A stretch of DNA of 64,000 nt, taken from NCBI RefSeq assembly GCF_002892535.1, contig NZ_CP024847.1:2108001-2172000 (forward strand), given 5' to 3'. The position numbers were made by a program, and so were the translations under genes. This document shows positions 6,086 to 61,396 of the stretch, one piece after another. The number at the start of each line of letters is the position of its first letter. Position 1 is the first letter of the stretch. The DNA comes from Aquella oligotrophica. Lineage in GTDB: Bacteria > Pseudomonadota > Gammaproteobacteria > Burkholderiales > UBA11063. Under the pieces are notes generated by a model, which saw nothing but the letters and a program-made list of their open reading frames with translations, did no database searches and had not been told where the DNA came from.

Positions 6086-6727
6086 ATGAAAAAACTAAAA
6101 TTTGCACTTTTAGGGTTGGCATGTGCCAGTTCAATGGCTTTTGCAGATGACTTCAAGCTCGGATACATTAATGTAGATCGTGTATTTACTGAAGCGAAGC
6201 CGGCAAAAGCAATTCAACAGGCACTAAAAGACAAATATGGTCCACAACAAAAACAGCTTGAAACCATGAATAATAATATTATCGCTGAACAGCAACAGAT
6301 GCAAAAAATTGCTAACAAAGCACCTAGCTTTGATAAACTTAGCAAATCAGATCAGTCTCAATTAAAAAGTCTAGAAGATAAGTATCGCAAAGATCAAGGG
6401 CAATTCCAACAGCAATATATGGCTTTCCAGCAAAATCTGCAAAAATCACAGGAATACGCACTTGGTTCTTTAATGACCAAGACCAATGCTATTCTTAAAG
6501 ACATTAGTGATAAAAAAGGTTATGATTTAGTTCTTACCTCTAATCAACTAGTATTTGCAAAAGCCAAATATGATTTGACAGATCAAGTAATGGATCAGTT
6601 AAATACAATTGATGCAACTGATATTATCAAACAATTAAATAGCCCACAAACTATCCCGGCTCCAGTAGGTAAACCAGGTGCTGCACCAGCTCCTACTTCG
6701 GCTACAGCTACAACTCCTTCTAAATAA
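6086..6727 (+). CDS. skp: Periplasmic chaperone Skp/OmpH
   Basis: Skp is a trimeric periplasmic holdase for unfolded outer-membrane proteins on their way to BamA. The chosen ATG at 6086 has a good ribosome site (GAGG) ten bases upstream and begins a clean signal peptide (MKKLKFALLGLACASSMAFA). An in-frame TTG at 6071 would add five residues and would sit in front of that ribosome site, so it is rejected. The mature protein starts DDFKLGYINVDRVF, typical of the OmpH family, then carries a long Gln/Lys-rich helical arm. An Ala/Pro/Thr-rich tail ends the protein. Its place between bamA and lpxD is the conserved one. Confidence 0.93.
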   Translation: MKKLKFALLGLACASSMAFADDFKLGYINVDRVFTEAKPAKAIQQALKDKYGPQQKQLETMNNNIIAEQQQMQKIANKAPSFDKLSKSDQSQLKSLEDKYRKDQGQFQQQYMAFQQNLQKSQEYALGSLMTKTNAILKDISDKKGYDLVLTSNQLVFAKAKYDLTDQVMDQLNTIDATDIIKQLNSPQTIPAPVGKPGAAPAPTSATATTPSK

Positions 6728-6745
6728 ATCTGAGTGGTGAAATAG

Positions 6746-7783
6746 ATGGCATATAAACTTTCTCAATTAATTGAGTTATTTGGCGGCAGATTAGAAGGTG
6801 CAGATATCGAAGTTAATGATATAGCCCCAACTAATCTAGCCAGCGAAACTCAAATAACCTTTCTCTCTGATAGTAAATATAAAAAACATCTGTCAGATTG
6901 TAAAGCAGCAGCAATAATAATAAATGAGGCAGATGCTAGCGATATAAATATACCAAAAATTATCACACCTAACCCATACTATTATTTTAGTCAAGTTAGT
7001 AATCTGTTTCATCCACGAAGAAAAATGGCAGCAGGAATTGCAAAATCAGCGTTTATTAGTGACTCTGCAAAACTAGGTAGCAATCCGGCAATTGCACATA
7101 ATGTGGTTATTGGTGACAATGTGATAATTGGTAATAATTGCCAGATATTTGCCAACACCGTCATTGGTAATGATGTGGTTATTGGTGACAATGTAACAAT
7201 TTACCCAAATGTAACCATCTATGATAAAGTATCGATTGGAAATGATTGCGTTTTTCATAGTGGTTGTGCAATTGGTTCTGATGGCTTTGGTAATGCAAAA
7301 GACGAAAAACATCACTATCACCGTATCCCACAAATCGGTGGGGTAAAAATTGGTAATCGGGTCGAAATTGGTTCAAATACTACCATAGACTGTGGTACAT
7401 TTGAAGCAACAATTATCGAAGATGGTGTCCGGATTGATAACCTAGTACAAATCGCACACAATGTAAAAATCGGTGCGCATACAGGTATTGCATCTCAGGT
7501 TGGAATTGCCGGGAACAGCAAAATTGGTAGGCATTGTATGCTTGCAGGTAATGCAGGAATTGCCGATCATGTTTCAATCTGTGACTTCACTGTAATTGGC
7601 GCCAGCAGTAATGTTGGAAAAGACATAACCAAACCAGCATTGTATTCAAATGGCATGACAGCTATGGAATACCGAGATTGGGCAAAAATATTTGTCCACA
7701 TTCGTAATCTAGATAAATTAAACACCAAAGTTCGTGATTTACAAGCAAATTTTGACAAAATAGGGAGCAAACTGGATGAGTGA
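6746..7783 (+). CDS. lpxD: UDP-3-O-acylglucosamine N-acyltransferase LpxD
   Basis: LpxD adds the N-linked hydroxyacyl chain in the third step of lipid A synthesis. After an N-terminal UDP-binding domain the protein consists of hexapeptide repeats (left-handed beta-helix), visible as repeated I-G-D/N-N units between about residues 105 and 290. The likely catalytic His lies in QIAHNVKIG. The C-terminus is helical. The length of 345 matches the family. Its end overlaps the fabZ start by 8 bases, which suggests translational coupling. Confidence 0.95.
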   Translation: MAYKLSQLIELFGGRLEGADIEVNDIAPTNLASETQITFLSDSKYKKHLSDCKAAAIIINEADASDINIPKIITPNPYYYFSQVSNLFHPRRKMAAGIAKSAFISDSAKLGSNPAIAHNVVIGDNVIIGNNCQIFANTVIGNDVVIGDNVTIYPNVTIYDKVSIGNDCVFHSGCAIGSDGFGNAKDEKHHYHRIPQIGGVKIGNRVEIGSNTTIDCGTFEATIIEDGVRIDNLVQIAHNVKIGAHTGIASQVGIAGNSKIGRHCMLAGNAGIADHVSICDFTVIGASSNVGKDITKPALYSNGMTAMEYRDWAKIFVHIRNLDKLNTKVRDLQANFDKIGSKLDE

Positions 7784-8231
7784 AAATACTTCGACCGAGT
7801 TAAATATACTGGAAATTATGAAGTGGTTACCACATAGATATCCGTTACTACTAGTTGACAAGGTAATTAGTCATGATGGTGCAAAACACATTAAAGCATT
7901 AAAAAACGTCACCATGAATGAAGAGTTCTTTACTGGACACTTCCCTGGATTCCCTGTAATGCCAGGAGTATTAATGATAGAGGCAATGGCACAAGTTTCA
8001 GGAATACTTTTTGGACTAATCTATGGCATGCAAAAAGAAAATGAACAGTCTTTTTTTGCCTCAATTGATAAAGCACGTTTTAAACGTCAGGTTATCCCCG
8101 GTGATCAGTTAATTTTTGATATTGAACTACTAAAAGTAACCCGTGGTATTGCCAAATTTCAGGCAGTAGCCACAGTAGAAGGACAGGTAGCAGCTGAAGC
8201 TGAAATCATGATCGCCAGAAGAGAGGTTTAA
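7776..8231 (+). CDS. fabZ: 3-hydroxyacyl-ACP dehydratase FabZ
   Basis: FabZ dehydrates 3-hydroxyacyl-ACP in fatty-acid elongation and competes with LpxA/LpxD for the same substrate. The hot-dog fold active-site stretch is GHFPGFPVMPGVLMIEAMAQ, with the catalytic His and Glu present. The length of 151 is standard. The gene overlaps lpxD by 8 bases and stops one base before the lpxA start, as in the canonical operon. Confidence 0.96.
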   Translation: MSENTSTELNILEIMKWLPHRYPLLLVDKVISHDGAKHIKALKNVTMNEEFFTGHFPGFPVMPGVLMIEAMAQVSGILFGLIYGMQKENEQSFFASIDKARFKRQVIPGDQLIFDIELLKVTRGIAKFQAVATVEGQVAAEAEIMIARREV

Positions 8232-9012: not shown

Positions 9013-10163
9013 TGTTAAAAATAGCCATGATTGCAGGAGAGGCTTCAGGCGATATGCTAGCCTCTTCTTTAATTAGAGCCATCCAAAATCAATATCAAGG
9101 CGAAGTTGAATTTGTTGGTATTGGTGGCAAAATGATGCAGGATAATGGTTTTAAATCTTGGCATAAGATGGAAACCCTGTCGGTAATGGGTTATATTGAA
9201 GTTATAAAATCTTTACCGGAAATTTTAAAAGTCCGCTACTCTGTTTTAAAACAACTTCTAGAATATAAGCCCGATGTTTTTATTGGTGTAGATGCACCTG
9301 ATTTTAATTTCTTCATAGAAAACAAGCTTAAACAGGCTGGTATAAAAACTGTACATTATATTAGCCCAACGATCTGGGCTTGGCGTTACAAACGTATTTT
9401 CAAAATAAAAAAATCGACTGATTTAATGTTATGCATTTTTCCGTTTGAAGAAGAGATTTACCATAAAGTTGGAATGGCAGCCAAATTCATTGGACATCCA
9501 ATGGCAAATGATATTGAACTAAATATAGATACTTTAAAGTATCGTAAATTATTGAATCTGCCTGAAGATAAAACAATTATTACCATCCTTAGCGGTAGCC
9601 GGATTCGCGAAGTAAATAGTCTTGCAGAAATTTTAAGCCAGACCTGTCACAAAATAGCAGAAAAAATACCTAACTGTCTTTTTATCTATCCTTTTGCTAG
9701 TCAACATACTCTCGCAATTATGGATAATTACCTAAATGAAAATAAACCAGATTTTGAATATAAACTGGTATTAAATCAAACCCGAGATACAATCAAAGCT
9801 AGTGATATGGTGATTGCCAAAAGTGGCACGGTAAGCCTCGAAACTGCTCTATGCAAAAAGCCAATGCTGATTTGTTATAAAATTAATAAGTTTACTGAAT
9901 GGATGCTTAGACGAATGGTAACTATTGACTATGTTGGTCAGCCAAATATTATTGCTGGTAAGGAGATAGTTAAAGAGTTCCTTCAGGAAGATGCCAATCC
10001 TGATTCTATGAGTGAATACATAATTGAATTATTTAATAATCAGCAAAAGCGTAAGGCAATGATTGACGAGTTTTATAAGCTCCACTATACCCTACTCCAA
10101 GATGGCAGTACTGAGGGTGCCAAAGCAGTGCTAGATTTAATTCATAATAGAGTCAACGATTAG
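9012..10163 (+). CDS. lpxB: Lipid-A-disaccharide synthase LpxB
   Basis: LpxB is the GT19 glycosyltransferase that joins UDP-diacyl-GlcN and lipid X into the lipid A disaccharide. The N-terminal signature AGEASGDMLASSLI and the motifs YISPTIWAWRYKRIFKIKK and KSGTVSLETALCKKPM are typical. The length of 383 is standard. It is the last gene of the rseP-to-lpxB operon. rnhB, the usual next gene, is found about 6 kb further on, beyond inserted genes. Confidence 0.95.
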   Translation: MLKIAMIAGEASGDMLASSLIRAIQNQYQGEVEFVGIGGKMMQDNGFKSWHKMETLSVMGYIEVIKSLPEILKVRYSVLKQLLEYKPDVFIGVDAPDFNFFIENKLKQAGIKTVHYISPTIWAWRYKRIFKIKKSTDLMLCIFPFEEEIYHKVGMAAKFIGHPMANDIELNIDTLKYRKLLNLPEDKTIITILSGSRIREVNSLAEILSQTCHKIAEKIPNCLFIYPFASQHTLAIMDNYLNENKPDFEYKLVLNQTRDTIKASDMVIAKSGTVSLETALCKKPMLICYKINKFTEWMLRRMVTIDYVGQPNIIAGKEIVKEFLQEDANPDSMSEYIIELFNNQQKRKAMIDEFYKLHYTLLQDGSTEGAKAVLDLIHNRVND

Positions 10164-10174
10164 TCGATTAAATT

Positions 10175-10198
10175 GCCGGGAACTATAAATGTCCCGGC
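10175..10198. terminator. Hairpin between convergent lpxB and deaminase genes
   Basis: A perfect 7-bp GC-rich stem (GCCGGGA / TCCCGGC) with a 10-base loop sits 11 bases after the lpxB stop. There is no strong T run on either strand, so its termination strength is uncertain. Confidence 0.5.
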
Positions 10199-10214
10199 GA
10201 AGTATAAAATCTTC

Positions 10215-11549
10215 TTAGCGTTTTATCAACTCTAATTGAGCTTTCCGTTGCTCCTGACGTAATTGAGACATATCAATCCCAACCAGCATGCCGCTTTCTA
10301 CTTTAATTTTACCGGCGACATAGACCATATCAGCTTTAGTTGCACCGCAAATAATCAATGCCGCTAATGGATCATCAGCACCCCAAAACTGAATATCATC
10401 TAGTTTAAACATTGCTATATCTGCTTGTTTACCAACTTTTAATTCACCAATATCACTCCGTCCGAGTGCCTGTGCGCCGCCAAGAGTTCCCCAGCGAAGA
10501 ATATCCTTATGGCTAATCTGAGAGCTATTATGTAAGCGTTGTAATAAAAATGCTTGCCTTAACTCCAACATCATATTCGAATGATCATTTGACGCTGAAC
10601 CATCCACCGCAATGCTTACTTTACAACCGGCTTTTTCCGCCACCACACTTCTAAATACTCCAGATGATAGGATCATATTTGAAGATGGACAATGGCTCAT
10701 TCCTACCCCAGCTTTACCAAGCCTTGCTAATTCTATATCTGTATAATGAATCGCATGAGCAAGCCAAGTCCGATCATTTAGCCAGCCAACCTGCTCCAGA
10801 TAATCTATTGGACGGCAACCAAACATTTTTTCACAGAATTTATTTTCATCTTCGGTTTCAGATAAATGTGTATGCATGCGCACATTATATTTTTCTGATA
10901 ATACTGCTGTTTTTTCCATGATTGATTTGGTTACCGAAAACGGTGAGCAAGGAGCTAACCCAATCTGAATCATCGAACCGTCATGAGTTTCATGATATTT
11001 ATTGATTACGCGTTCACAGTCAGCTAGAATATCATCTTCACTTTGAACGACGCAATCTGGCGGTAAGCCCCCATCTTTTTGGGACAGATTCATTGAGCCA
11101 CGTGTAATCATTGAACGCATGCCCATTTCACGTGCTGCCATAACCTGAACATCAGTACCATTCTCCAAGCCTTTTGGAAACACATAATGATGGTCTGCTG
11201 AAGTAGTGCAGCCTGATAATAATAATTCAGCCATTGCCGTCTTACTCGCGGTATAAAGTAACTCGGGGGTCAAACCACTCCAAACACCATAAAGGGTCGT
11301 CAACCATGCAAAAAGCTCTTTGTCCAGCGAATCATGAAAAGCACGAGTTAAAGTCTGGTAATAATGATGATGCGTACTGACTAACCCTGGAATAACCACG
11401 TGCTCACTAGCATCGATAGTTTTGTCAATAGTAACTGAAGGCGTTGCACCTTTGGCTACCAGCTCAATAATTTTATCATTCTCAATTACCAAGCCATTCG
11501 CGGCATTATCCGCCAAAATTGCTTTCGGGTTTTTAATCCATGTTTTCAT
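10215..11549 (-). CDS. Probable 8-oxoguanine deaminase (amidohydrolase)
   Basis: This is a zinc/iron amidohydrolase of the cytosine/guanine-deaminase group. The metal-binding N-terminal motif is visible as STHHHYYQTLTR, followed by LAPCSPFSVT, the His motif MHTHLSETEDE, LAHAIHYTD, and the catalytic Asp in SIAVDGSASNDHSNM. The N-terminus (WIKNPKAILADNAANGLVIE) and overall layout resemble 8-oxoguanine deaminases, which recover oxidised purines as urate. AtzB-like or other aminohydrolases of the same fold cannot be excluded without a search. The length of 444 fits. A ribosome site (AGGAG) lies just upstream of the start. The IS110-type element lies directly upstream, so the native promoter may have been displaced. 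Confidence 0.8.
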   Translation of the reverse strand: MKTWIKNPKAILADNAANGLVIENDKIIELVAKGATPSVTIDKTIDASEHVVIPGLVSTHHHYYQTLTRAFHDSLDKELFAWLTTLYGVWSGLTPELLYTASKTAMAELLLSGCTTSADHHYVFPKGLENGTDVQVMAAREMGMRSMITRGSMNLSQKDGGLPPDCVVQSEDDILADCERVINKYHETHDGSMIQIGLAPCSPFSVTKSIMEKTAVLSEKYNVRMHTHLSETEDENKFCEKMFGCRPIDYLEQVGWLNDRTWLAHAIHYTDIELARLGKAGVGMSHCPSSNMILSSGVFRSVVAEKAGCKVSIAVDGSASNDHSNMMLELRQAFLLQRLHNSSQISHKDILRWGTLGGAQALGRSDIGELKVGKQADIAMFKLDDIQFWGADDPLAALIICGATKADMVYVAGKIKVESGMLVGIDMSQLRQEQRKAQLELIKR

Positions 11550-11639
11550 ACAAACTCCTATGATGATGTGTCAAGTTACTTTACCAACTAAACACACCTA
11601 ATTAAACTTAACCATCTAATTTATTTGTAAATTATTTCA

Positions 11640-12680
11640 TTAGATGGTACCGATAATTCTTTTTTCTATTGGACGAATTTCACGAATGTTTTTTACAAAA
11701 TCCGTAAAATACCAACCTTTTTTTAACGTATAGTAAACTATCGTTAATAATTTTCTGGCAGTGGCTACAATAGCCTTAGCAAAACCTCGTTTGGTTTTTA
11801 TTTTGTTGTAAAAACCACATAATTTCTGATTGTACTTAATCGCTATTAAGGCGCATTGCAACAGGGATTTTCTTACTAGCCCATCACCGCGCTTGGTTAT
11901 ACGACCGTGATTTACTGTCTCATTTGAATTATTTACTCGCGGTACTAACCCAAAATATGCCGCCAGCTTTTTCTCATCGGCAAAGTCATTTATATTTCCG
12001 ATTGAACTTAATAAGGTAACTGCTGTATTGGTACCAATACCTTTAATACTAGTTACATTCTCAAAGCCCGGTAACTTACTGCCATATTCTGCAATTTTGT
12101 TATCAAATTGATCTACTCGTTCAATTAAGGTTTTGATTTCTGCAATAAGTTGTTCTAATTCAAATCTGACTAATTCATCAACTTCGTAAGCCAAGGCTTT
12201 ATTTAATCCTTTTTGGCTGGTTAAACTAGTTTTCTTAATCTTAATTCCACAACGATTTAATAAGTTATGAACCTTATTTTTTAACTAGGTTCGTAATTCA
12301 ATAAATTTATTACGGCTATCTACCAAACTATGTAAACGGTCATCTAAAATATCTTTAACCCTTGCTCGCGGTAGAATATCTTTACTTAAAAACTCGGCTA
12401 ATAATTTAGCGTCATTTTTATCTGTCTTTTTACATGACTTAGTAATTACTTTAAACTGCATAGTATTTACAACCACTAAATCAAAAACTAAATCCACACA
12501 GTGGCGATAAACGTAACTACTGTTTCCAGTTGCTTCTATAGCTAATTTATCTGTAGGTAATAGCCTTGCTTTAAATGTGTCGATTTCAGTCACAGCTAGT
12601 ACCTCATAACGATATTCTTCATTTTCCAAATAACATATTGTCATTTGATTCGTATGAAGATCCAAACCTATATAGCGCAT
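11640..12680 (-). pseudogene. IS110-family transposase with one in-frame amber stop
   Basis: IS110 transposases are RuvC-like DEDD recombinases that act with a C-terminal Ser domain and a guide RNA. The first part (12285-12680) starts MRYIGLDLHTNQ and carries the acidic motif KKTDKNDAKLLAEF. The second part contains IKGIGTNTAVTLLSSIG, AAYFGLVPR and a probable catalytic Ser in NNSNETVNHGR. Both parts are in the same frame and are separated only by a TAG at 12285-12287. Without it the protein would be 346 residues, normal for the family. A CAG-to-TAG change is the simplest explanation. The element is therefore probably inactive unless the amber codon is suppressed. Confidence 0.85.
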
Positions 12681-12689
12681 GATATCTAC

Positions 12690-12906
12690 TCTCTAAAAAA
12701 ACAGGTTGCTCAGTTTTACAGAGTAAAGTAAAATACGGCTTACAGCCATTCTCCTATACGTGATTCCAGTCACAGATTGGCGATTCGGTAACAGGTTGAA
12801 AAGAGACTAATCTCCTAACCGAGGTCTATGCCTCAAAATGAAATGCAGCCTGATACCTATTTACTCTGCTAAACATCGAAATTTACATCTCAAAGTTTAG
12901 CAGAGT
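12690..12906 (-). ncRNA. Candidate IS110 bridge RNA region
   Basis: About 225 non-coding bases lie 5' of the transposase start, where IS110-group elements encode the bridge RNA that pairs with donor and target DNA. The region is structured: a perfect 12-bp hairpin (ACTCTGCTAAAC at 12863-12874 with 12895-12906, 20-base loop) is near the outer end, and a shorter stem (TTTTAC / GTAAAA) lies near 12713-12733. Location and structure support the call; loop-to-target pairing was not tested. Confidence 0.45.
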
Positions 12907-12993
12907 TCTCTGTAATTCCGCGACTTGAACACATCATCATGCCATCTCCTATATAAAATACATCGGTACTTGATCACTAAGTTTAATTACAAA

Positions 12994-13015
12994 ATAAGTA
13001 CCTTTAAATACTTAT
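12994..13015 (-). terminator. Weak hairpin after the MFS gene
   Basis: A 7-bp stem (ATAAGTA / TACTTAT) with an 8-base loop lies just past the stop of the minus-strand MFS gene and is followed on that strand by TTTTG. Confidence 0.4.
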
Positions 13016-13019
13016 CTGA

Positions 13020-14252
13020 TTACTTGCGAAAACTTTCTTTGATGACACTACTTAGCGCAAAACCAATCGCAACAGCTACACAAAATAAGGAAAATGCTAT
13101 TTTATCTACTGTTAATACATTATGTAGGCTTGCACCCTCCCCACGAATTATAGAAGCAATCGCGGTGCTTAATAATGCACCACTAAGATAAACCACCGTA
13201 TTACATACTCCGACCCCAATCCCTTGTAATGGCGGTACCAAAACTTCCATTATAACTGAGTAAGACAAAATAGCACTACTACAGGAGAGACCAAACAGAA
13301 AATATAAAATTAGTGCAGTATTTGCATCAAGCTTAGGTCCAAGAATTAGTATACTTAATAAAATAAGACTAGCCAGTGCACCGATAAGCAGTATTTTTTT
13401 TCTAGTTTGCAACTTTATGGATAATGCACCAATGACCGGATTACCAACCGCAACTCCCAGAAACATTACCGAATTAACTAGCGCAGAATGTGCCAAACTA
13501 TGGCTATCATAATTACCCTGAAATCCAATTAACCAATTTGCCCCAAAATTAAATAAGGTTCCCAATAACAAACCAGCATAAGCCGTAACTAGCCAGAATT
13601 GTTTATTCGCCGCCAATTGTTTAAATAACTCTAAGATACTGGCGCGATTCGCGGTTTGTTGCATGCTATCCGATTTACTAGCTGGGCTTGATTTAACAAT
13701 TAATCCGATAGCAATCGCCAAAATGAAACCAACTATTGCCAAGACTAGACTGGTATGTTTCCAGCCATGTAAAAAATTGATAATTTGTGGTAAAAACATA
13801 TTAGCACTAACTACACTAATATTGCCCATAGATTGAGTTAGTCCAAAAAACAATGAAAATTTATCTTTGTCTAGCCAGCGTCCGATTAGTACGGCAATGC
13901 TCACAAAGGCAAATGCAGAACCAATGGCTATAACCACCCGGGCAAGTATAAGTTGTTCAACATCATTAGCATGACTATAAATAAGCATTCCGATACTTAC
14001 CAAAATAGTTGAAAGAGTAAGAATTATTCGGATTGAAAATTTACTCACCATAATTCCGGCGGGAAGTTGACATAAAGCGTACACCAAACTTGAAATAGCT
14101 GCCAAACTCCCGATAGCATTGACAGATAGGTTCAAATCATGCTGTTGCAACTGGAGGGAAACTCCATAAAACCCGTTGGCAATAAACAGTTCATAAACTG
14201 CAAACAAGGTTGCAAATAGCCAAACCGTAATAGGAGTAACTCTATTTCTCAC
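13020..14252 (-). CDS. MFS transporter
   Basis: A 410-residue integral membrane protein with about 12 predicted membrane segments in two halves joined by a polar loop around SSPASKSDSMQQTANRAS. The N-terminus (VWLFATLFAVYELFIANGFYG) and the ILIGRWLDKDKFSLFFGLTQ segment are typical of the major facilitator superfamily, possibly of the anion/organic acid or sugar-phosphate-like group. The substrate cannot be read from the sequence. Its neighbours, the purine-type deaminase beyond the IS and an unknown protein upstream, give only weak hints. It was acquired or retained within the block that separates lpxB from rnhB. Confidence 0.85.
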   Translation of the reverse strand: MRNRVTPITVWLFATLFAVYELFIANGFYGVSLQLQQHDLNLSVNAIGSLAAISSLVYALCQLPAGIMVSKFSIRIILTLSTILVSIGMLIYSHANDVEQLILARVVIAIGSAFAFVSIAVLIGRWLDKDKFSLFFGLTQSMGNISVVSANMFLPQIINFLHGWKHTSLVLAIVGFILAIAIGLIVKSSPASKSDSMQQTANRASILELFKQLAANKQFWLVTAYAGLLLGTLFNFGANWLIGFQGNYDSHSLAHSALVNSVMFLGVAVGNPVIGALSIKLQTRKKILLIGALASLILLSILILGPKLDANTALILYFLFGLSCSSAILSYSVIMEVLVPPLQGIGVGVCNTVVYLSGALLSTAIASIIRGEGASLHNVLTVDKIAFSLFCVAVAIGFALSSVIKESFRK

Positions 14253-14308
14253 TAATAAAACCTCACAAATTCATCATTATTAATACTATAGATTGACATG
14301 ATTTATAA

Positions 14309-14893
14309 TTAAAATCCACGCCCGGCACCATCTATTGTTGATTTATGCTTCTTGGGCAATGGGGTATTATTTTTAATTGCGCTAACTAGATAATTCCATG
14401 ATTTATCCCAGTCTTCTCTAGTTTTACCATTAAAATAGACAAATAAATCGTGTAGTGTAGTTTCAAGATCAATCTCGTCATTACTAGTCTCATCCGCATT
14501 AAGAATATGCTTTACTCGTCTGGTAATTTCTGACTCACTTAAACCAGTATCTGCTTCTAGCTGCGACAAAATACATTCGCCTGACGAACTTGGACTAATA
14601 TCTAGGTTAAGTTGATTAGAGTTTTTATCATACTCAAAGTAATCACAGGCTAATGCTTCTTTACCCGGTTTTTCATTGGTATAGACAATAATTCGATATG
14701 CACCATTAGCCAGTGTCGCCAGATTTGCCTGACCGACACAGCTTACTACATAATTAGCATCGACCGAGCAATTTAAACCACCCCGGATTAGTGGGTGATA
14801 TGGCTTATCCTGAATCGTAAAGCCGACATCAGTCAAATCACCGCGTAACCCTTCAGATATTCGCTGCTCTATTTGAATATTAATATCGGTCAT
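14309..14893 (-). CDS. Hypothetical protein, 194 residues
   Basis: I do not recognise this protein. It has no signal peptide or membrane segment and is acidic, so it is probably cytoplasmic. The first half looks beta-rich (VGFTIQDKPYHPLIRGGLNC) with four Cys spread through the sequence; the second half looks helical (LSESEITRRVKHILNADE). It ends in a basic, Gly-rich tail (KKHKSTIDGAGRGF). It is divergent from the LysR regulator gene and shares a 308-base intergenic region with it, so it could be a regulated target. It lies 56 bases upstream of the MFS gene on the same strand. Confidence 0.6.
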   Translation of the reverse strand: MTDINIQIEQRISEGLRGDLTDVGFTIQDKPYHPLIRGGLNCSVDANYVVSCVGQANLATLANGAYRIIVYTNEKPGKEALACDYFEYDKNSNQLNLDISPSSSGECILSQLEADTGLSESEITRRVKHILNADETSNDEIDLETTLHDLFVYFNGKTREDWDKSWNYLVSAIKNNTPLPKKHKSTIDGAGRGF

Positions 14894-51934: not shown

Positions 51935-54388
51935 TCAATCGGTAGTTACAATTTCAAAATGGTTATTACCTTTATCATAGACACATGTTCTCAGATTCTT
52001 GCCAAACTTGGTTCCATAACTATGGCAGTAATTGTTTTCCATATTTAAATCAAATTGAGGTGTATCATCTTGTCCAATCCTGTTGATATCCTGCATTCCG
52101 AATGAATATCTGAATCTGACTACTTTTTCCGGGTTATAAAAAACATCTGTCGCATTGGGTGCCAAATCATGACTTCCTGATTTGATGGGACCTAGTTTGG
52201 GCGCATAATACATGTAGTTATAGCCTTTTTCTGGAAATTTGGTAGTTATTTGATATTTATTCCAAGCATATTGACTATCTCGAGTTACAAGGATTTTAGC
52301 ATCTGACCATTCGCCAGTAATTTTAACAAAGGTACCATCTGGATAAGCAAGAGTTTGATAGTCAAGCTGTTTGCAGTTAAGTGTTGGGCAGAATAACCTA
52401 AAGCCCCAACTCCAAAGGTCGCGCCAACGATATTCCCGATAATGTAGACTGACACTATAATAGTTACCTTCATTCCAGCCCCAGGCTCCATATTTGATAC
52501 CAAAGACGTATTGCGTATTATTTGGAACACCGCCGCCGCTAACCGAGTAGATTGCATACCGCGGCTCAACGTCTCCTTGACCACTTACCTTGGTTTCATA
52601 ATTAGGGCGATTCATCCGAATATGATTTCCATTAATAACTTCCAGCGGGTGATTCCATTCATATTTGTGAGCATCACCTTCCACATATAACCGAGTAAGA
52701 TTTCTATAGTTAAGTTCAGAAATTACTGGAATATCGTAAAATGCTTTTGAACCATTCTTATGATAAAAGCGGTCTTTTCGCCAGAACATTGCATGACCTT
52801 CTGCACTACCTTGTTCTGCCTTGCTTTCTTTACGCTCTCTACGAGACTCACGATGATCCACATATACTAGTCGCGTAATACCATTATACCCATGTTCCCG
52901 AGCTTCGGCTGGAATAAAAATAGTTTGACCATTAACTACCCGCAACGTACTATTCTGAATGCTTTTAAAAGGAACACTGAAATCTGCGGCAGTAGGCCAA
53001 TTAGATTTGGCGTTACCGCCATAAGTTCCCACCAGTGTTGTCCCATCGTATGATTTGAGGTTCAGTCCTGCCAGTGAGGATAATTTTGTCGGGTCAAGGA
53101 TACCCTCAGTGGTAAATTGTGAAGGATCATCAAATTTCAATCTTATCGAACCATAAATATCTTTTAATGAATTTTTGTCAACTGGAAGTTTATCCATTAA
53201 TAACTTAATTTTTTCAGCGTAAAATTTACGTACAACTTCAGCATTCTGTGCAATAGTATTAGTAGATGATACTCCATTAATTTTAATGGCAATATGTGTA
53301 TTATAAATATTTGCATATGGGAAATCCTTACTGATTAATGTTGCCCCGAGGGTATCAATCTGCTGCATGCTGGCAATAGTAGTAAGAATATCTACGTACA
53401 TTTTTACATATTGTGCATTATAAAAACTATTTAATGCAATGTAGTTTATTTTTGCACCATCACGGCTGGTTTCATGTATCAAAGCATCAAGAGAGGATTT
53501 CAGATTTGTTAAATTATCGCCATTATTACCCATGATATTATTTAGAGCTAATTCAGCAGGGTCGCGCTGTGTTTGGAAAAACTTAATTACAATTGGTAAT
53601 GGTTCTGCTTTTTGAAGAGCTTTGATATATTCAAGCAAGCTTTTATTACTCTGATTCAAAGTGTTACTAATTTGCTGTGAAAGTTGATTAATGATTGCAA
53701 GGTTAGTATTAAGGTTGGCAAGTTTATCCTGAAAGCGATCTTTATTGTATTTGGTATAAAAATTTATTAGCTGATTTTCAACTCTTTGTACCTGAGCTCC
53801 TACTTGAGTAATCAGCTCAATTGCAATAGTTAGCTGTTTACTGGTAGTTGTATCGCCACCACCGCCACCACGGGGAAACATCAGCTCAACTATGCCACCA
53901 CCAAGGTCGCTTACCTGTTTAAACCCGGGGAAAACTGCCGCGATAATTTTAAAACTGGCACTAACTCGCTGTGAGACTAATCTATAATCATCGATACTAT
54001 TACCATCCATATTATTTCTGGATGTCTGCAATAATGGTGCATTAGCAAAATTTATGGAAGCAGCATTCAGGGAAATATTATAAATTTCATCTCCAGGAGT
54101 ATTCGCAAACTTTTCAATTGATGCACTACCAATTTTTTTACCATTATTTGTAGCATAAATACTAACTTCATGCATTCCTGGAGTTAGAGAAAGCCCTGGA
54201 AGTGTTAGATTACAATATGAAACATTATTACAGTTCTGTTCTGCCGATTTAATTCCGGCGGTAGTAGCAATTTCAGCCCTAATAACAGTAAAGCCGCTAA
54301 GTTCAGACGATGGAAGACTGATTATAGTATTTACAGCGTAACTATTAACTGCTAAACAGGTCAATAAGCTAATTAACTTGGTCTTCAT
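51935..54388 (-). CDS. Secreted 817-residue protein, candidate helical pore-forming toxin
   Basis: ATG at 54388 is chosen: AAAGGA lies before it and it opens a signal peptide (MKTKLISLLTCLAVNSYAVN). A longer reading from 54430 lacks such support. After a beta-rich domain with a Cys pair (residues about 20-95) comes a long helical region (about 135-460). It contains a hydrophobic, Gly-rich stretch FPGFKQVSDLGGGIVELMF followed by PRGGGGGD, then Gln/Asn-rich helices (QVGAQVQRVENQLINFYTKY). This layout is reminiscent of the helical domain of Cry-type or other alpha-pore-forming toxins. The C-terminal 350 residues are beta-rich, with many Tyr and Trp. No family is recognised by me, and the toxin idea is inference. 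Confidence 0.65.
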   Translation of the reverse strand: MKTKLISLLTCLAVNSYAVNTIISLPSSELSGFTVIRAEIATTAGIKSAEQNCNNVSYCNLTLPGLSLTPGMHEVSIYATNNGKKIGSASIEKFANTPGDEIYNISLNAASINFANAPLLQTSRNNMDGNSIDDYRLVSQRVSASFKIIAAVFPGFKQVSDLGGGIVELMFPRGGGGGDTTTSKQLTIAIELITQVGAQVQRVENQLINFYTKYNKDRFQDKLANLNTNLAIINQLSQQISNTLNQSNKSLLEYIKALQKAEPLPIVIKFFQTQRDPAELALNNIMGNNGDNLTNLKSSLDALIHETSRDGAKINYIALNSFYNAQYVKMYVDILTTIASMQQIDTLGATLISKDFPYANIYNTHIAIKINGVSSTNTIAQNAEVVRKFYAEKIKLLMDKLPVDKNSLKDIYGSIRLKFDDPSQFTTEGILDPTKLSSLAGLNLKSYDGTTLVGTYGGNAKSNWPTAADFSVPFKSIQNSTLRVVNGQTIFIPAEAREHGYNGITRLVYVDHRESRRERKESKAEQGSAEGHAMFWRKDRFYHKNGSKAFYDIPVISELNYRNLTRLYVEGDAHKYEWNHPLEVINGNHIRMNRPNYETKVSGQGDVEPRYAIYSVSGGGVPNNTQYVFGIKYGAWGWNEGNYYSVSLHYREYRWRDLWSWGFRLFCPTLNCKQLDYQTLAYPDGTFVKITGEWSDAKILVTRDSQYAWNKYQITTKFPEKGYNYMYYAPKLGPIKSGSHDLAPNATDVFYNPEKVVRFRYSFGMQDINRIGQDDTPQFDLNMENNYCHSYGTKFGKNLRTCVYDKGNNHFEIVTTD

Positions 54389-54684
54389 AAATATTCCTTT
54401 TACAAATATTGTGGTAGCTAAAGCTAGCATAAGGTATTATGCATTAATGACAATATGAATGTAAATAACCATTTCCGTATAACAACAATTCACTTTTGAA
54501 AAATAAAATTAAACATCGGCAGTAATAATTGTAAAATTTTACCAGTAAACTGTTAAAACTGCTATACTATATTTATATTTAAACTAGTAAAATATATACC
54601 GTAACCAGTATTAATTACTATACCGAAATTTATAAAACGGTAGATCAAAAACTCGGGGTAGATACAATAAGGAGTTAATTTACC

Positions 54685-55002
54685 ATGAAAAAACTTATTT
54701 TAATTTTAGAATTAATTATCATAAAATCAGTTTTTGCGGTTAATCCTATTCCACCTGTCCCTGGAGCACCCCAAGCAGGCAACTACTATATAAACGGAAC
54801 ATACGGTAGTACTATGACTGTAAATGGTAATACTACCTACTATAGTAATGGTCAATATCAGGGACAATCACCAGCTAATGGTAATAACCCAATTTTCCAG
54901 AACAGAAATCAACAATCAATCATAAATACAGTTCCAGCTGCAAATAATAGTCAGGAGCAATTAATGAACTCTACGCCAACGGATAGCATCAATGCTCCCT
55001 AG
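54685..55002 (+). CDS. Small exported protein, Pro/Asn/Gly-rich
   Basis: A signal peptide (about residues 1-18, ending SVFA) is followed by a low-complexity mature part of about 87 residues rich in Asn, Pro, Gly, Tyr and Gln (PIPPVPGAPQAGNYYINGTY, then TYYSNGQYQGQ). It has no Cys and no recognisable fold. A ribosome site (AAGGAG) precedes ATG by 12 bases. Its last 14 bases overlap the 3' end of the convergent rarA gene. It lies divergent from the large secreted protein. Confidence 0.6.
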   Translation: MKKLILILELIIIKSVFAVNPIPPVPGAPQAGNYYINGTYGSTMTVNGNTTYYSNGQYQGQSPANGNNPIFQNRNQQSIINTVPAANNSQEQLMNSTPTDSINAP

Positions 55003-56266
55003 CCTGTTCATCAAGCTCTCGTAAAAATTGAAGCCTCTCGATAATGCGCTGTTCGAAACCTTGATTTGTTGGTCGATAAAATGTTGGTGATATTTCTAGC
55101 TCATCGGGAAAGTAACTTTCATTTGGTACATAATGACTTGGATAATCATGTGCATAGCGATATTCTTTACCGTAGCCTAATTCTGCCATCAGCTTAGTGG
55201 GAGCATTGCGTAAGTGAACTGGTACCGAGGTGCTACCGCTACTTCTTATATATTCTTTTAGCTGATTATAAGCTAATTCGAGGCTATTGCTCTTATTAGT
55301 AACAGCCAAATAGGTAACCGCCCCAGCAAGCGCAAGTTCACCTTCTGGAGAACCAAGACGTTCATAAGTCTGTAAAGCATTATTTACAACAGTTGCTGCA
55401 TTGATATCTGCTAACCCAATATCTTCCCATGCCATACGCAGTAACCTTCTACCTAGGTATAATGGGTCAGCACCACCAGCTAACATTCTCCCAAACCAAT
55501 ACAATGCTGCATCAGGGTTAGATCCACGTACTGATTTATGTAACGCTGAAATTTGATTATAAAATTCCTCACCACCTTTATCAAACCGTTGCATATTCTT
55601 AGGAAGAACCGATTTTACTAAGGTGGCATCTATATTGGCTTCATCTGTCGAATTTGCTAAAAGCTCATACAAGTTTACCAGCCTTCGTGCATCACCATCA
55701 CAAATGTCAATTAAAAGTTTCTTTGCATCATCATCAAGCTTTGGCTTAATTTTGTACTTGATTGCCCGTGCTAAAAGATTTGACAAATCATCATAAGTCA
55801 AACTTTCAAGTACATAAACTTGCATCCTTGATAATAATGCATTGTTTATTTCAAATGAAGGGTTTTCAGTAGTTGCTCCGATCAGGATAATCTTACCCTC
55901 TTCCAAATGATGAAGAAAAGCATCCTGCTGCGCTTTATTAAATCGGTGAATCTCATCAACAAAAAGAACTGTTGGTTTATCGTTAAATAATCCGCCTTGA
56001 TTTTTTTCTGCGGCTTCTAACGCCTCTTTTATTTCTTTAACCCCACTAAATACAGCTGAGAGATAGATAGCATGACAATCAAACTCTTTAATTAAAATAT
56101 TGGCAAGAGTAGTTTTTCCAACTCCAGGCGGCCCCCAAAATATCATTGAAGTAATTCTTTTACTATTTAATAACCTAGTTAAAAGCCCATTTTCGCCAAC
56201 AAGATGCCCCTGACCAACTACTTCAGACAACTGCTGTGGTCTTAAAATTTCTGTTAATGGCTGCAT
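54989..56266 (-). CDS. rarA: Replication-associated recombination protein A
   Basis: RarA/MgsA is an AAA+ ATPase that acts at stalled replication forks. Walker A ([15 protein letters not shown]), Walker B (VLFVDEIHRFNKAQQD) and the sensor region IGATTENPSFEINNALLSR are complete, followed by the C-terminal tetramerisation domain (ALYWFGRMLAGGADPLYLGR). The length of 425 is normal. It ends inside the convergent small gene by 14 bases. The gap upstream is 383 bases and leads to the promoter of the next gene. Confidence 0.96.
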   Translation of the reverse strand: MQPLTEILRPQQLSEVVGQGHLVGENGLLTRLLNSKRITSMIFWGPPGVGKTTLANILIKEFDCHAIYLSAVFSGVKEIKEALEAAEKNQGGLFNDKPTVLFVDEIHRFNKAQQDAFLHHLEEGKIILIGATTENPSFEINNALLSRMQVYVLESLTYDDLSNLLARAIKYKIKPKLDDDAKKLLIDICDGDARRLVNLYELLANSTDEANIDATLVKSVLPKNMQRFDKGGEEFYNQISALHKSVRGSNPDAALYWFGRMLAGGADPLYLGRRLLRMAWEDIGLADINAATVVNNALQTYERLGSPEGELALAGAVTYLAVTNKSNSLELAYNQLKEYIRSSGSTSVPVHLRNAPTKLMAELGYGKEYRYAHDYPSHYVPNESYFPDELEISPTFYRPTNQGFEQRIIERLQFLRELDEQAREH

Positions 56267-56534: not shown

Positions 56535-56571
56535 TTGCAAATATGGGAAATGCATTTGCAAATATGGGAAA
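56535..56571 (+). promoter_or_regulatory. Tandem 16-bp operator-like direct repeat
   Basis: TTGCAAATATGGGAAA occurs at 56535-56550 and again at 56556-56571, without mismatch, with a 21-base period (two helical turns). The second copy ends 17 bases before the -35 box of the lipoprotein promoter, an arrangement typical of an activator binding site. Confidence 0.7.
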
Positions 56572-56617: not shown

Positions 56618-56649
56618 AATTTCATCTTTACCTTAAGGGAGGTCTTAAC

Positions 56650-59151
56650 ATGAACAATAAACTTAAATTAATTAGCCTTGCAGTCATAAGCACATTCACT
56701 CTTGCTGCATGTAATAACGGAACTACCAGTAGTAATGGTAGTTCTACCACTTCAGCCACCCAGTTTGAAGCTGATACTGTCAATGGTAAAATATCTGAAA
56801 TTAGACAATTTACACAAAGCCCTGATGGCAAGAAAAATATTTTAATTTGGACAGGTCATCCTCATGGGCAGCACTTTGCCAATAGACACTCAAAAGATCC
56901 AAATAAAGTTACGCACCACTATTCAAACTTATCAGCATTAAATGCAGACAAACCAAATCTAGACAGTAGTTATAAACATATTGCAGAAACAGCTAAAGCA
57001 ATAAATATTAATGGAATAAATAAAGCCGCTGGTAAAGTTTATACTGGGCTAGATCTTGGAATTACTGCATCTACCCAATCTTCAGTTGAAGGTTCTGGGG
57101 GGTATTTAAGTAATGGAGAACCCGTATGCTATTCATATATTCCAGAAACCCAATCATCGATGAATGGTCCAGGAGTTACAGGATTTGCTAATTTCAATAC
57201 AACAAATTCTGATAGTACCTTCAGTAGTACTTTAAATTTAAAAGCAAGCATATCTGGAGCTGATGGATTATTCAAAGCAAAAGACTCTTTCAGTTACGAC
57301 ACCAATTATAGTGGAACTTACTCAACTGGACAAAATAATTTCTTCTCATATTTTGCATTAAGTACTAATTTCGAAGGAACTCAATTATCAGCAAATGGAA
57401 AATCATTGCTAGCAAGTAATCCAGAACAATTTATGCAAACCTGTGGGACATCATATATTACTAACGAGGCTCTTGGGGTCAGTAATCAATTTACATCGAC
57501 AATAACTTCCTCCAGTAATAGTTCAAGTACGAGCATATCTAACACATTAAACGCAAGTTACTCTTTTGTTGACTTTACAGCAGAACTAACCTCTTTAAGT
57601 AAAAATACAAACCAAACATTTAGTCTAGCAAGCTCCTATGTAAGTAATGGCGATTATACGTTCCAAAATACACATAACATAACAAATGGTATAGTTGCGA
57701 ATAAAGGTGATTCATTTGAAGGAATAATATCTGAATGGATTGGTAATAATAAAAATGGAGCTAATGCCTGTAATGAGCAAATCACTTCCAGCAGTGTAAC
57801 CACATGTACTGGATATTTGACAGACTTAAGCGCATTAATTAGTGCATTAACTGCCGCAGTTGGATCAGATATCCAAACATCAGGGTTTCCTACTGACATG
57901 AGTTTATTTGAACAATTTCCAAGCGGCGTAACTGTAATTAATGCTCAAGGTGGTGGCACACCTCCAACACCATTAACTACCCAGCCTGTAAGTAACTTGG
58001 CTAATGGATCTTTTCCCGATGCTTACGCTCCGTATGTTACAAACTTAGAAAATCATATCCAGTTAATTTTTAATTTAACCTCTCTAGCTGGCAGAGCACA
58101 GTTATATGCAAATATGTTGACACCTACTCTACTTGCTGGAAATAGTACTATTGATATACCCACTGAATTAAATAATTTGGCTAATTCTTATTCGACAGAT
58201 TATTTAAACCTAGCAAGTGAGGTCAACAATTGCATGAATAATCTAAGCAGCTGTGCAACAATGACCCAAATTGCGACTAGTGATCCATATACATTCTATT
58301 CATCAACAACCACTCCATACCGTGTAGGGGACAGTTTATGGGCTGATAAGATGTGGAATTCAATTATTCTTCAATATAATGGCACATATAATGAAGCTGG
58401 TCAAATTGGTGGAGAGTTAAATGCTTATTTTCCTTCTGTAGCTACAACTGTACAACTAAATAATTCCGCACCAATGGCTGTATTTTATGCAAGTAATATG
58501 AACATTAGCGGTGATCAACAAGCAGGAATTACTGGAATAGGATTATCACCAATTGTTGTAACGAACCCTGTATATGGTTTAGAAACAGACTTTAGTAATG
58601 GATATGCAACTTGGGGCGGCTTGGCATCATATCCAATTGCAGGGGAATTTATCATAAACTACCCAATGACAAGTGCGAATGGAACAATAGCACAGCAACA
58701 AGCTGCATTAGCCAACTTGTTACTAGGCTATACTAATGGTCAATCCATGAGTAATGTTTTTACCGCAGGTCCAGTTAAATATCTTGGCGGAGAACCAACA
58801 GTTGATCAGAATGCTAGTAAATTACAAACACCTGTAAGTAATATGGCTTCATCCTTTTCGTCTCCTCAGAGTGGATTTAGTAGTGGTAACGGTTACAGTT
58901 TAGGAGCTATGTCAATACTAGTATCTAACCCCAACAATGATGCTTGGAATTATTCAATATTTACTTATACACCCAATAATGGAGTAGTATCTAATGGATA
59001 CCAAACTTATAATACTAACATGGCAGCTGGCTGTTATCCAATGGTTAATATGGATCCAGATATAATTTCTGATTATAATATTTGTCCAAGTATGTACGGC
59101 GGTATTACTAATGAGCTACAATTAAACGCCATTATCACACCATTTTTTTAA
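56650..59151 (+). CDS. Lipoprotein with MACPF-like signature (833 residues)
   Basis: The N-terminus is a lipoprotein signal with lipobox TLAAC and Asn at +2. A Ser/Thr/Asn-rich stretch follows. At residues 258-275 the segment PEQFMQTCGTSYITNEALG resembles the MACPF/CDC core signature (F..x.YGTHYI....LGG), preceded by a suitable FFSYFALSTNFEGTQLS segment and followed by Ser/Thr-rich strands that could form membrane hairpins. The first conserved Tyr is Cys here, and the second Gly of the LGG pair is Val. The rest (residues about 480-833) is beta/loop-rich and unfamiliar. The upstream region has a regulated-looking promoter. A pore-forming or host/prey-directed surface protein is an inference, not shown. 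Confidence 0.65.
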   Translation: MNNKLKLISLAVISTFTLAACNNGTTSSNGSSTTSATQFEADTVNGKISEIRQFTQSPDGKKNILIWTGHPHGQHFANRHSKDPNKVTHHYSNLSALNADKPNLDSSYKHIAETAKAININGINKAAGKVYTGLDLGITASTQSSVEGSGGYLSNGEPVCYSYIPETQSSMNGPGVTGFANFNTTNSDSTFSSTLNLKASISGADGLFKAKDSFSYDTNYSGTYSTGQNNFFSYFALSTNFEGTQLSANGKSLLASNPEQFMQTCGTSYITNEALGVSNQFTSTITSSSNSSSTSISNTLNASYSFVDFTAELTSLSKNTNQTFSLASSYVSNGDYTFQNTHNITNGIVANKGDSFEGIISEWIGNNKNGANACNEQITSSSVTTCTGYLTDLSALISALTAAVGSDIQTSGFPTDMSLFEQFPSGVTVINAQGGGTPPTPLTTQPVSNLANGSFPDAYAPYVTNLENHIQLIFNLTSLAGRAQLYANMLTPTLLAGNSTIDIPTELNNLANSYSTDYLNLASEVNNCMNNLSSCATMTQIATSDPYTFYSSTTTPYRVGDSLWADKMWNSIILQYNGTYNEAGQIGGELNAYFPSVATTVQLNNSAPMAVFYASNMNISGDQQAGITGIGLSPIVVTNPVYGLETDFSNGYATWGGLASYPIAGEFIINYPMTSANGTIAQQQAALANLLLGYTNGQSMSNVFTAGPVKYLGGEPTVDQNASKLQTPVSNMASSFSSPQSGFSSGNGYSLGAMSILVSNPNNDAWNYSIFTYTPNNGVVSNGYQTYNTNMAAGCYPMVNMDPDIISDYNICPSMYGGITNELQLNAIITPFF

Positions 59152-59170: not shown

Positions 59171-59207
59171 AAAGCATAATGACGGGTTTCTCCCGTCATT
59201 ATGCTTT
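59171..59207. terminator. Strong bidirectional terminator
   Basis: A perfect 16-bp stem (AAAGCATAATGACGGG / CCCGTCATTATGCTTT) with a 5-base loop lies between the convergent lipoprotein and hydroxyacid dehydrogenase genes. A-rich sequence on one side gives a T tail on the minus strand. Confidence 0.85.
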
Positions 59208-60688: not shown

Positions 60689-61396
60689 TTAAACTATCCT
60701 TATACTAAACTGTTCCACCATAATTCGTGGAAGTATGGTATCGTAACCAAGAAAAATTGCTTTATCAATCAGATCTTCCACGGTTAAAACCTCAAACTTC
60801 CTTAATAACTGCTGATGAATAATATTCCTTACAGTACTAACCGCAGTATCTTTATGCATAATGATATTCAGATGATGGGTTACCACTTTTGGCTTTGCAT
60901 GCATAATCAAAAGAAAAATGATTAGCTCTTCTATCTCGGTTAATTCCAAATTCAATCGTCTCTGGTTCGTAAATCCAAGATTATCATATTTAACAATATG
61001 ATTATTAATATATGGCTTAAAGTGCCCTAGCGAAAATATTGGGAAAAAATCAACTCGCACGCCGACTGCCTGATCAATATTAGGATCAACTAGCGGTGTT
61101 TTCTGTTTTAAGTATAACTGAATCTCACCATCATAATTCTGTGAGGTAATATATTGTTGAATTTGTCTATATTTGAGACACTCAACATCCTCTTGAATAC
61201 AACTTTCCGATATCTGCTGGATCGCGGGCAAACTATCGTAAGTTGCCGTACTTAAATCAATTCCAAGGACATTATTTTTTTCCATTAGTAATGGCGAGAC
61301 ATAGACAAAATAAGACTCGGGGTTGACTATAATTGTTTTCTGTTCTGGTAAAACAACCATTTTCAGGGCATTAACATAGTCTTGTAAGTAATTCAT
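60689..61396 (-). CDS. LuxR-like regulator with a divergent DNA-binding domain
   Basis: The 235 residues have the same length and plan as the regulator at 36506-37213: a sensor-like N-terminal part (for example TIIVNPESYFVYVSPLLM) and a C-terminal helix-turn-helix segment (LELTEIEELIIFLLIMHAKP then LNIIMHKDTAVSTVRNIIHQ). The usual LuxR core is degenerate, and the conserved Gly of the turn is not seen. It is divergent from the amino-acid permease gene and starts the three-gene minus-strand operon, so it may control one or both. The effector is unknown. Confidence 0.65.
   Translation of the reverse strand: MNYLQDYVNALKMVVLPEQKTIIVNPESYFVYVSPLLMEKNNVLGIDLSTATYDSLPAIQQISESCIQEDVECLKYRQIQQYITSQNYDGEIQLYLKQKTPLVDPNIDQAVGVRVDFFPIFSLGHFKPYINNHIVKYDNLGFTNQRRLNLELTEIEELIIFLLIMHAKPKVVTHHLNIIMHKDTAVSTVRNIIHQQLLRKFEVLTVEDLIDKAIFLGYDTILPRIMVEQFSIRIV

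Follow-up and report, generated by a model that had tools for sequence, protein, structure and literature searches.

Does a lipoprotein whose MACPF signature has changed at three positions still descend from the MACPF proteins, and might it form pores? The question arises from a gene in a 64,000-nucleotide stretch of the Aquella oligotrophica genome (the window; positions 2108001-2172000 of the one contig of 2,820,660 bases). A. oligotrophica P08T is a Gram-negative bacterium from tap water, classed in Neisseriaceae (PMC6612550, partial text). The main text of that paper contains none of the terms toxin, hemolysin, lipoprotein, secretion and virulence.

The 833-aa lipoprotein and its signature

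The features of the locus are as follows.

56535..56571, + strand: tandem operator-like site, the 16-mer TTGCAAATATGGGAAA twice, 21 bp from start to start, ending 78 nt before the ATG (sequence search)
56637..56644, + strand: Shine-Dalgarno-like AGGGAGGT 5' of the ATG (read from the sequence)
56650..59151, + strand: MACPF-like lipoprotein gene, 833 aa, ATG start (ORF and profile match)
56650..56712, + strand: signal peptide and lipobox LAA-C with Cys21 (LAAC, residues 18-21; read from the sequence)
57127..57129, + strand: Cys160, proposed disulfide partner of Cys265 (Cys in 23 of 24 rows of the column)
57154..57651, + strand: MACPF-like core, residues 169-334 (independent family profile, E 4.4e-17, 59.4 bits after a composition-bias correction of 19.8)
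57430..57480, + strand: signature F-MQT-CGTSY-X6-GV, residues 261-277 (sequence and family alignment)
57643..57654, + strand: second glycine site SNGD, residues 332-335 (68 residues past the motif Gly)
57655..59148, + strand: C-terminal region, residues 336-833 (Pfam search, and a relative's gene covering 404-640)
59171..59207, unstranded: hairpin between this gene and a convergent dehydrogenase gene (terminator-like on the - strand)

The initial annotation had called the product a lipoprotein with Ser/Thr-rich strands around its signature, and both points hold, as the lipobox ends at Cys21 and Ser and Thr make up 43% of residues 276-345. Beta amphipathicity is in excess before the signature, where only 3 of 500 shuffles reached it; after the signature (276-345) there is no excess (123 of 500 shuffles). 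A Pfam search found no domain in the C-terminal region, and the sigma-70 promoter pattern occurs near the gene about as often as expected (16 matches in the region, 14.5 expected).

The signature itself had been read as PEQFMQTCGTSYITNEALG at residues 258-276, and this reading was correct. Compared with the consensus Y/W-G-T/S-H-F/Y-X6-GG (PMC2954219, partial text), the protein reads C-G-T-S-Y-X6-G-V, with the X6 spacing exact and three positions changed (Tyr to Cys, His to Ser, second Gly to Val), so that the full signature is absent. Bth-MACPF, an accepted bacterial MACPF protein, also deviates and is printed as YGEFV-X6-GG (PMC2954219, partial text). Using a relaxed motif devised in this analysis, we compared the window ORFs of 100 aa or more (54 in all) with residue shuffles. 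One site was found, which the regular expression counts twice (observed 2), against a shuffle mean of 0.035; 1 of 200 shuffles reached 2. Given this test, the presence of the motif in a conserved family and the recovery of the protein by a profile built without it, the motif is more than a chance match.

An alignment of 28 genus-level members showed which of the changes are peculiar to this copy. The Cys and the following Gly of the motif are present in all members (28/28 each), so the change from Tyr to Cys is a family trait, and the term 'degenerate' was in that respect a misreading. The next residue is D in 20 rows, N in 5, T in 2 and S in 1, and the position of the signature His holds S in 17, K in 6, N in 2, G in 2 and H in a single row (L026, CGTHYI). 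Tyr does occur at the motif in one other genus, in two relatives that are nearly identical. The first Gly after X6 is found in 25/28 rows, and an adjacent GG stands at the second glycine site in 26/28. The distance from motif Gly to second glycine site is 66-73 residues among the members and 72 in each of three Pfam MACPF proteins. Where most relatives show AG-A/V and QxGG, the window protein has GV and NGD. Lacking the second Gly at both conserved sites, it is among the most divergent members of its family, and to this extent 'degenerate' was apt. The absence of the signature His and of both second glycines suggests that its hinge function may be altered.

Sequence homology to MACPF proteins

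No usable hit came from searching Pfam, NCBIfam, PDB, PHROGs and PADLOC with the window protein as a single sequence; the best PDB rows, a xylanase/Kemp eliminase (E 0.012, residues 490-573), were judged to be chance. The initial annotation had proposed MACPF models as a check, and here the Pfam model PF01823 failed, matching neither the window protein, any of the 28 members (28/28), the wider relatives (10/10) nor anything else in the own genome. The model does work in these collections, with matches in 3/398 genomes.

Profiles of the family gave a different picture. As an independent test, we used a 36-row domain profile that excluded the window protein and two further copies in its genome, L054 and L056, with E values calculated for 2600 proteins. 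This profile found all three, the window protein at E 4.4e-17 (residues 169-334), L054 at 2.4e-11 and L056 at 2e-6, after composition-bias corrections of 19.8, 31.1 and 14.3 bits, respectively. Below the hits under E 1e-8 and L056, the next among 424 ORFs were three Pfam-MACPF yardsticks, L038 (4e-6), L047 (0.26) and L039 (0.32), of which L038 alone is significant; the ORF ranked after them had E 2. The L038 alignment extends from the strands preceding the signature across YGSHLV as far as the second GG.

Profile-profile comparison gave 94.4% (E 9e-8) for the window protein against the narrow family profile. The three Pfam MACPFs scored 35% (E 4e-4) against the genus-level alignment A2, 79.9% (E 1.4e-5) against a domain-only alignment, 91.6% (E 8e-7, hhalign) against the class-level alignment A10 and 7.5% (E 0.0046) against the window protein alone. 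Homology to bona fide members of the MACPF/CDC superfamily was detectable across the core, except with the narrow alignment A3, which gave no MACPF signal against the same three proteins (E 0.3). When the columns of the MACPF side were shuffled, using gap-trimmed alignments, the observed score was reached in 0/150 shuffles for A2, 0/100 for A2 without the window protein and L002, 0/100 for the window protein alone and 0/200 for A10 (score 52.6, or 50.5 without the window row; best shuffle 23.8). Real proteins are the harder control, because shuffling preserves composition but not local order. In that control, which covered 149 ORFs of 250 aa or more, the window ORF came first and family members took all of the top four ranks; two of these four align outside the motif, and many other members, scanned one at a time, could not be told from noise.

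In the PDB, the domain profile matched Aeg-L (9uj0, E 5.5e-8), 6fbm (E 0.0026, columns 37-213, covering both glycine sites), stonustoxin alpha (0.024) and six pleurotolysin B rows (0.56 to 9.9), together with two unrelated rows, a spike protein (0.16) and an antifungal protein (2.5). The full-length A10 profile matched Aeg-L (2e-5), stonustoxin (0.086), 6fbm (0.63) and pleurotolysin B (4.1), and also influenza hemagglutinin chains, from 0.038, outside the core. The proteins 6fbm, stonustoxin and pleurotolysin have the MACPF fold. The first of these, a Gram-negative insecticidal protein, was also matched by L038 (E 4.8e-16). A literature search on divergent MACPF motifs yielded nothing new. Another, covering Aeg-L, Aquella pore formers and MACPF in Neisseriaceae, brought up a Chromobacterium biopesticide paper (PMC9596699, partial text).

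Together, the profile evidence (the 36-row profile, hhalign and PDB matches) suggests that the family is very probably homologous to MACPF. The MACPF link proposed in the initial annotation is therefore supported at the level of homology. Since PF01823 gives no match, the window protein carries GV and NGD, and the stretch after the signature has no excess amphipathicity, we file the family as a divergent clade homologous to MACPF and not under PF01823.

Family distribution, cysteines and gene surroundings

The window protein as a query matched two further loci in its own genome (E 2.3e-9 and 1.5e-5); a third match (E 0.117) spans the signal peptide only. A profile added G000:C1:1317962 (E 9.5e-4; 717 aa, L056:4627-6780), giving four copies in the genome. 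The 526-aa copy as a query found relatives in 12/100 genomes, all within the 23 of the same genus, and the 28-row profile had matches in 10/368 other genomes of the class, or 8/272 genera with the own genus included. Inspection showed no open frame in G514 (internal stop codons) and G539 (weak match). There were 13 matching ORFs, two of them own-genome copies, from 6 genera including the own; 10 of the 11 foreign ORFs were carried forward, L112 being omitted as near-identical to L111. In one relative (G016), five of seven matches lie inside 11.5 kb on one contig. The seven related contigs that have names belong to MAGs labelled Neisseriales, Neisseriaceae, Burkholderiales or Proteobacteria. 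Viral contigs gave matches to the motif pattern, yet neither they nor plasmids contained relatives of the window protein; plasmids gave none for the MACPF yardstick L038 either.

Wider relatives carry extra LamG, TPR or Ig-like domains on the same core, which fits variable recognition. L121:95-2707 and L109:502-3879 combine the MACPF-like core with a LamG lectin-like domain or with Ig-like choice-of-anchor repeats. Another gene, L069:5253-6821, encodes a homologue of the region of window residues 404-640 without the MACPF-like part, and none was found in the three forward frames of the preceding 370 bases.

The motif Cys (Cys265) and an upstream Cys (Cys160 in the window protein) are both present in 23/24 aligned rows and both absent in L111, where the motif has Tyr and the upstream position Ala. 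This joint loss, a single event, suggests that Cys265 probably pairs with Cys160 in a disulfide. C378 and C386 (window numbers) are lost together in three of the 24 rows, and C528 and C535 in no row of the same table. The nine cysteines of the protein, C795 and C812 among them, would fit one lipid anchor and four disulfides.

Upstream of the gene, the initial annotation had proposed a dedicated operator. The repeat at 56535-56571 is real, and it is not dedicated, as the tandem recurs before other genes that look exported. With up to 2 mismatches allowed, the single element matches 22 genomic sites and its backward pattern matches 2, and the tandem pattern with up to 3 mismatches occurs at 5 places against 0 for its backward control (the window site and G000:C1 823469, 1671660, 86076 and 2691035). 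The tandem pattern was derived from the window site and that at 823469, so the remaining three did not shape it. Four of the five sites precede genes that look exported; beside the window gene, these encode a 681-aa lipoprotein with a coiled-coil-like stretch (93 nt downstream, L099), a 449-aa lipoprotein (229 nt downstream, L102/L104) and a 63-aa secreted-looking peptide (66 nt downstream, L101). At the fifth (L103), no right-strand ATG gene of at least 45 aa was seen within 1.5 kb. A similar tandem in the relative G022 precedes a 645-aa lipoprotein gene, two genes beyond which lies a homologue of the C-terminal part of the window protein without the MACPF-like part. Each 16-mer is an imperfect palindrome, making it plausible that two dimers would bind one face of the DNA.

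The gene faces rarA (54989-56266) on one side, and on its 3' side convergent genes lie behind the hairpin. In the relative L068, a family gene is found on the opposite side of rarA. A conserved rarA-linked island was considered and dropped, because nine other rarA surroundings (L090-L098, two of them short, from 20 genomes with a rarA match) hold no family gene by profile. We inspected 11 loci with unequal flanks, comprising the four own (window, L054, L055, L056) and the named contigs L040-L046. A LuxR-type regulator lies in the flanks of 8/11 (that of L056 by reading of the sequence), or 9 if window ORF 60689-61396 is counted. This ORF (- strand) lies two genes past the lipoprotein gene and encodes a LuxR-like protein, which across 145 residues is 25% identical (E 3e-5) to the regulator next to the MACPF-like gene of L042. 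The ORF heads a row in which an acetyltransferase-like gene and a dehydrogenase-like gene also stand (names by reading). A gene set recurs in the genus, consisting of a LuxR-type regulator, a MACPF-like protein of ~530 aa, a lipoprotein of ~310 aa and one or more exported proteins of ~800 aa with a coiled-coil-like stretch (L055:7998-9578 with 7033-7965, 9766-14758 and 6186-7019; similar in L040-L044). The window also encodes, at 51935-54430 (- strand), an 831-aa exported-looking protein with a long coiled-coil-like middle. It has no Pfam family above the cut-off and a 66% identical copy at G000:C1:2565102-2567585.

These proteins bear on a possible, if somewhat unlikely, alternative in which the lipoprotein would be part of a two-protein system with a large exported coiled-coil-like protein of 650-850 aa, an arrangement compatible with the pore-forming role proposed below. 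Such a protein, of group A7 or group A8, is present in 7/11 loci; for these groups, 'coiled coil' denotes a reading of the sequence together with weak PDB matches. The window gene and a large lipoprotein gene of this kind (L065/L099) both lie behind the tandem site, as does another such gene in G022 (L069), and the A7 profile weakly matches L060, a relative of the 831-aa neighbour (E 1.1e-5 among 341 ORFs). However, no A7 or A8 protein is found in the other 4/11 loci, the window included, and the large proteins split into groups with little or no mutual match (E 0.016 over 25 columns); a common family for them was not established. The 831-aa neighbour also has a distribution of its own (relatives in 5/61 genomes, own counted), and its weak link to A7 (E 0.0024) lies in the coiled-coil-like part.

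Proposed role and comparison with known systems

The observations made directly on the 833-aa protein are its ORF, lipobox, family membership, sequence homology to MACPF and recurring operator-like site. On this basis we favour, as rather likely, an outer-membrane-anchored MACPF-type pore-forming lipoprotein used against other cells. The N-terminal Cys would be lipidated and the protein anchored in the outer membrane, displayed or shed. Its core (about residues 140-345) would have a divergent MACPF/CDC-superfamily fold, with the signature Cys, in place of Tyr, probably disulfide-bonded to Cys160. Target recognition is probably the task of the C-terminal part (about 336-833). Cores may oligomerise into an arc or ring on a target membrane, where two stretches beside the signature would unfold to form a beta-barrel pore, hinged at the two glycine sites. 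The protein would likely serve to antagonise other bacteria or protist grazers, in the manner of the BSAP lipoproteins of Bacteroidales, and the expansion of the family and its clustered copies fit antagonism. For an actual pore-forming role in antagonism, the balance is even or slightly favourable, and the role may instead be non-lytic.

An unlikely alternative is that a MACPF-fold lipoprotein is kept for binding without forming pores, as a surface adhesin, a scaffold or an immunity or decoy protein blocking a relative's ring. The window copy, L054 and L056 differ from the rest of the family in their hinge glycines and in the Q of QxGG, and non-lytic roles of MACPF-fold proteins have been raised as a possibility (PMC2954219, partial text), but the 833-aa frame is intact and the profile still recovers the core at E 4.4e-17. 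It is very improbable that a Ser/Thr-rich beta lipoprotein merely resembles the MACPF motif by chance: the motif is short, single-sequence searches were empty and composition bias is high (19.8 bits corrected), but the family is conserved and aligns collinearly over ~170 residues, through both glycine sites, with calibrated hits to MACPF chains.

The pore-forming role could be extended to a much more speculative picture, which we consider quite unlikely, in which Aquella and its relatives have lineage-expanded, lipid-anchored or secreted MACPF-type pore formers, a redox-labile Cys160-Cys265 bond locks the core until reduced, each works with a separate large exported coiled-coil protein and some of the genes form one tandem-operator regulon. 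The family appears to be a branch of the MACPF world missed by the standard model, with open frames in 6 genera (8 by raw tally) in a sample of 369 genomes. With its 6 genera, several copies per genome in the own genus and varied extra domains, it is a candidate for a weapon system in bacteria that live free in fresh water. It also offers an opportunity to study how much change in hinge and signature the MACPF fold can tolerate.

Compared with MACPF proteins of PF01823 (Plu-MACPF, Bth-MACPF, 6fbm), the window family shares a collinear core, the X6-G spacing of the signature, a second glycine site ~70 residues on and homology at the profile level. In contrast, it is unmatched by PF01823, has Cys for Tyr in 28/28 genus-level rows and His in 1/28, and shows a cysteine pattern of its own. 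All four family profiles that were tried had Aeg-L (PDB 9uj0, 36 chains) as their closest sequence match in the PDB; a literature search on it found no paper. CDC-like (CDCL) proteins of Bacteroidota belong to the same superfamily. They are described as antibacterial, two-component systems (PMC11169675, partial text), and the CDC/CDCL motif is F/Y-F/Y-Xn-YGR (PMC7527733, partial text). Lipid-anchored MACPF toxins are already known: the BSAPs of Bacteroidales, lipoproteins of the cell surface, combine a MACPF domain with a C-terminal part that varies and binds the receptor (PMC12853789, partial text). They belong to another phylum and, unlike them, the window family is unmatched by PF01823. What the window protein shares with the BSAPs is a lipid anchor, a MACPF-like core and a further C-terminal part (PMC12853789, partial text), which comprises about 500 residues in the window protein and 38 in BSAP-1.
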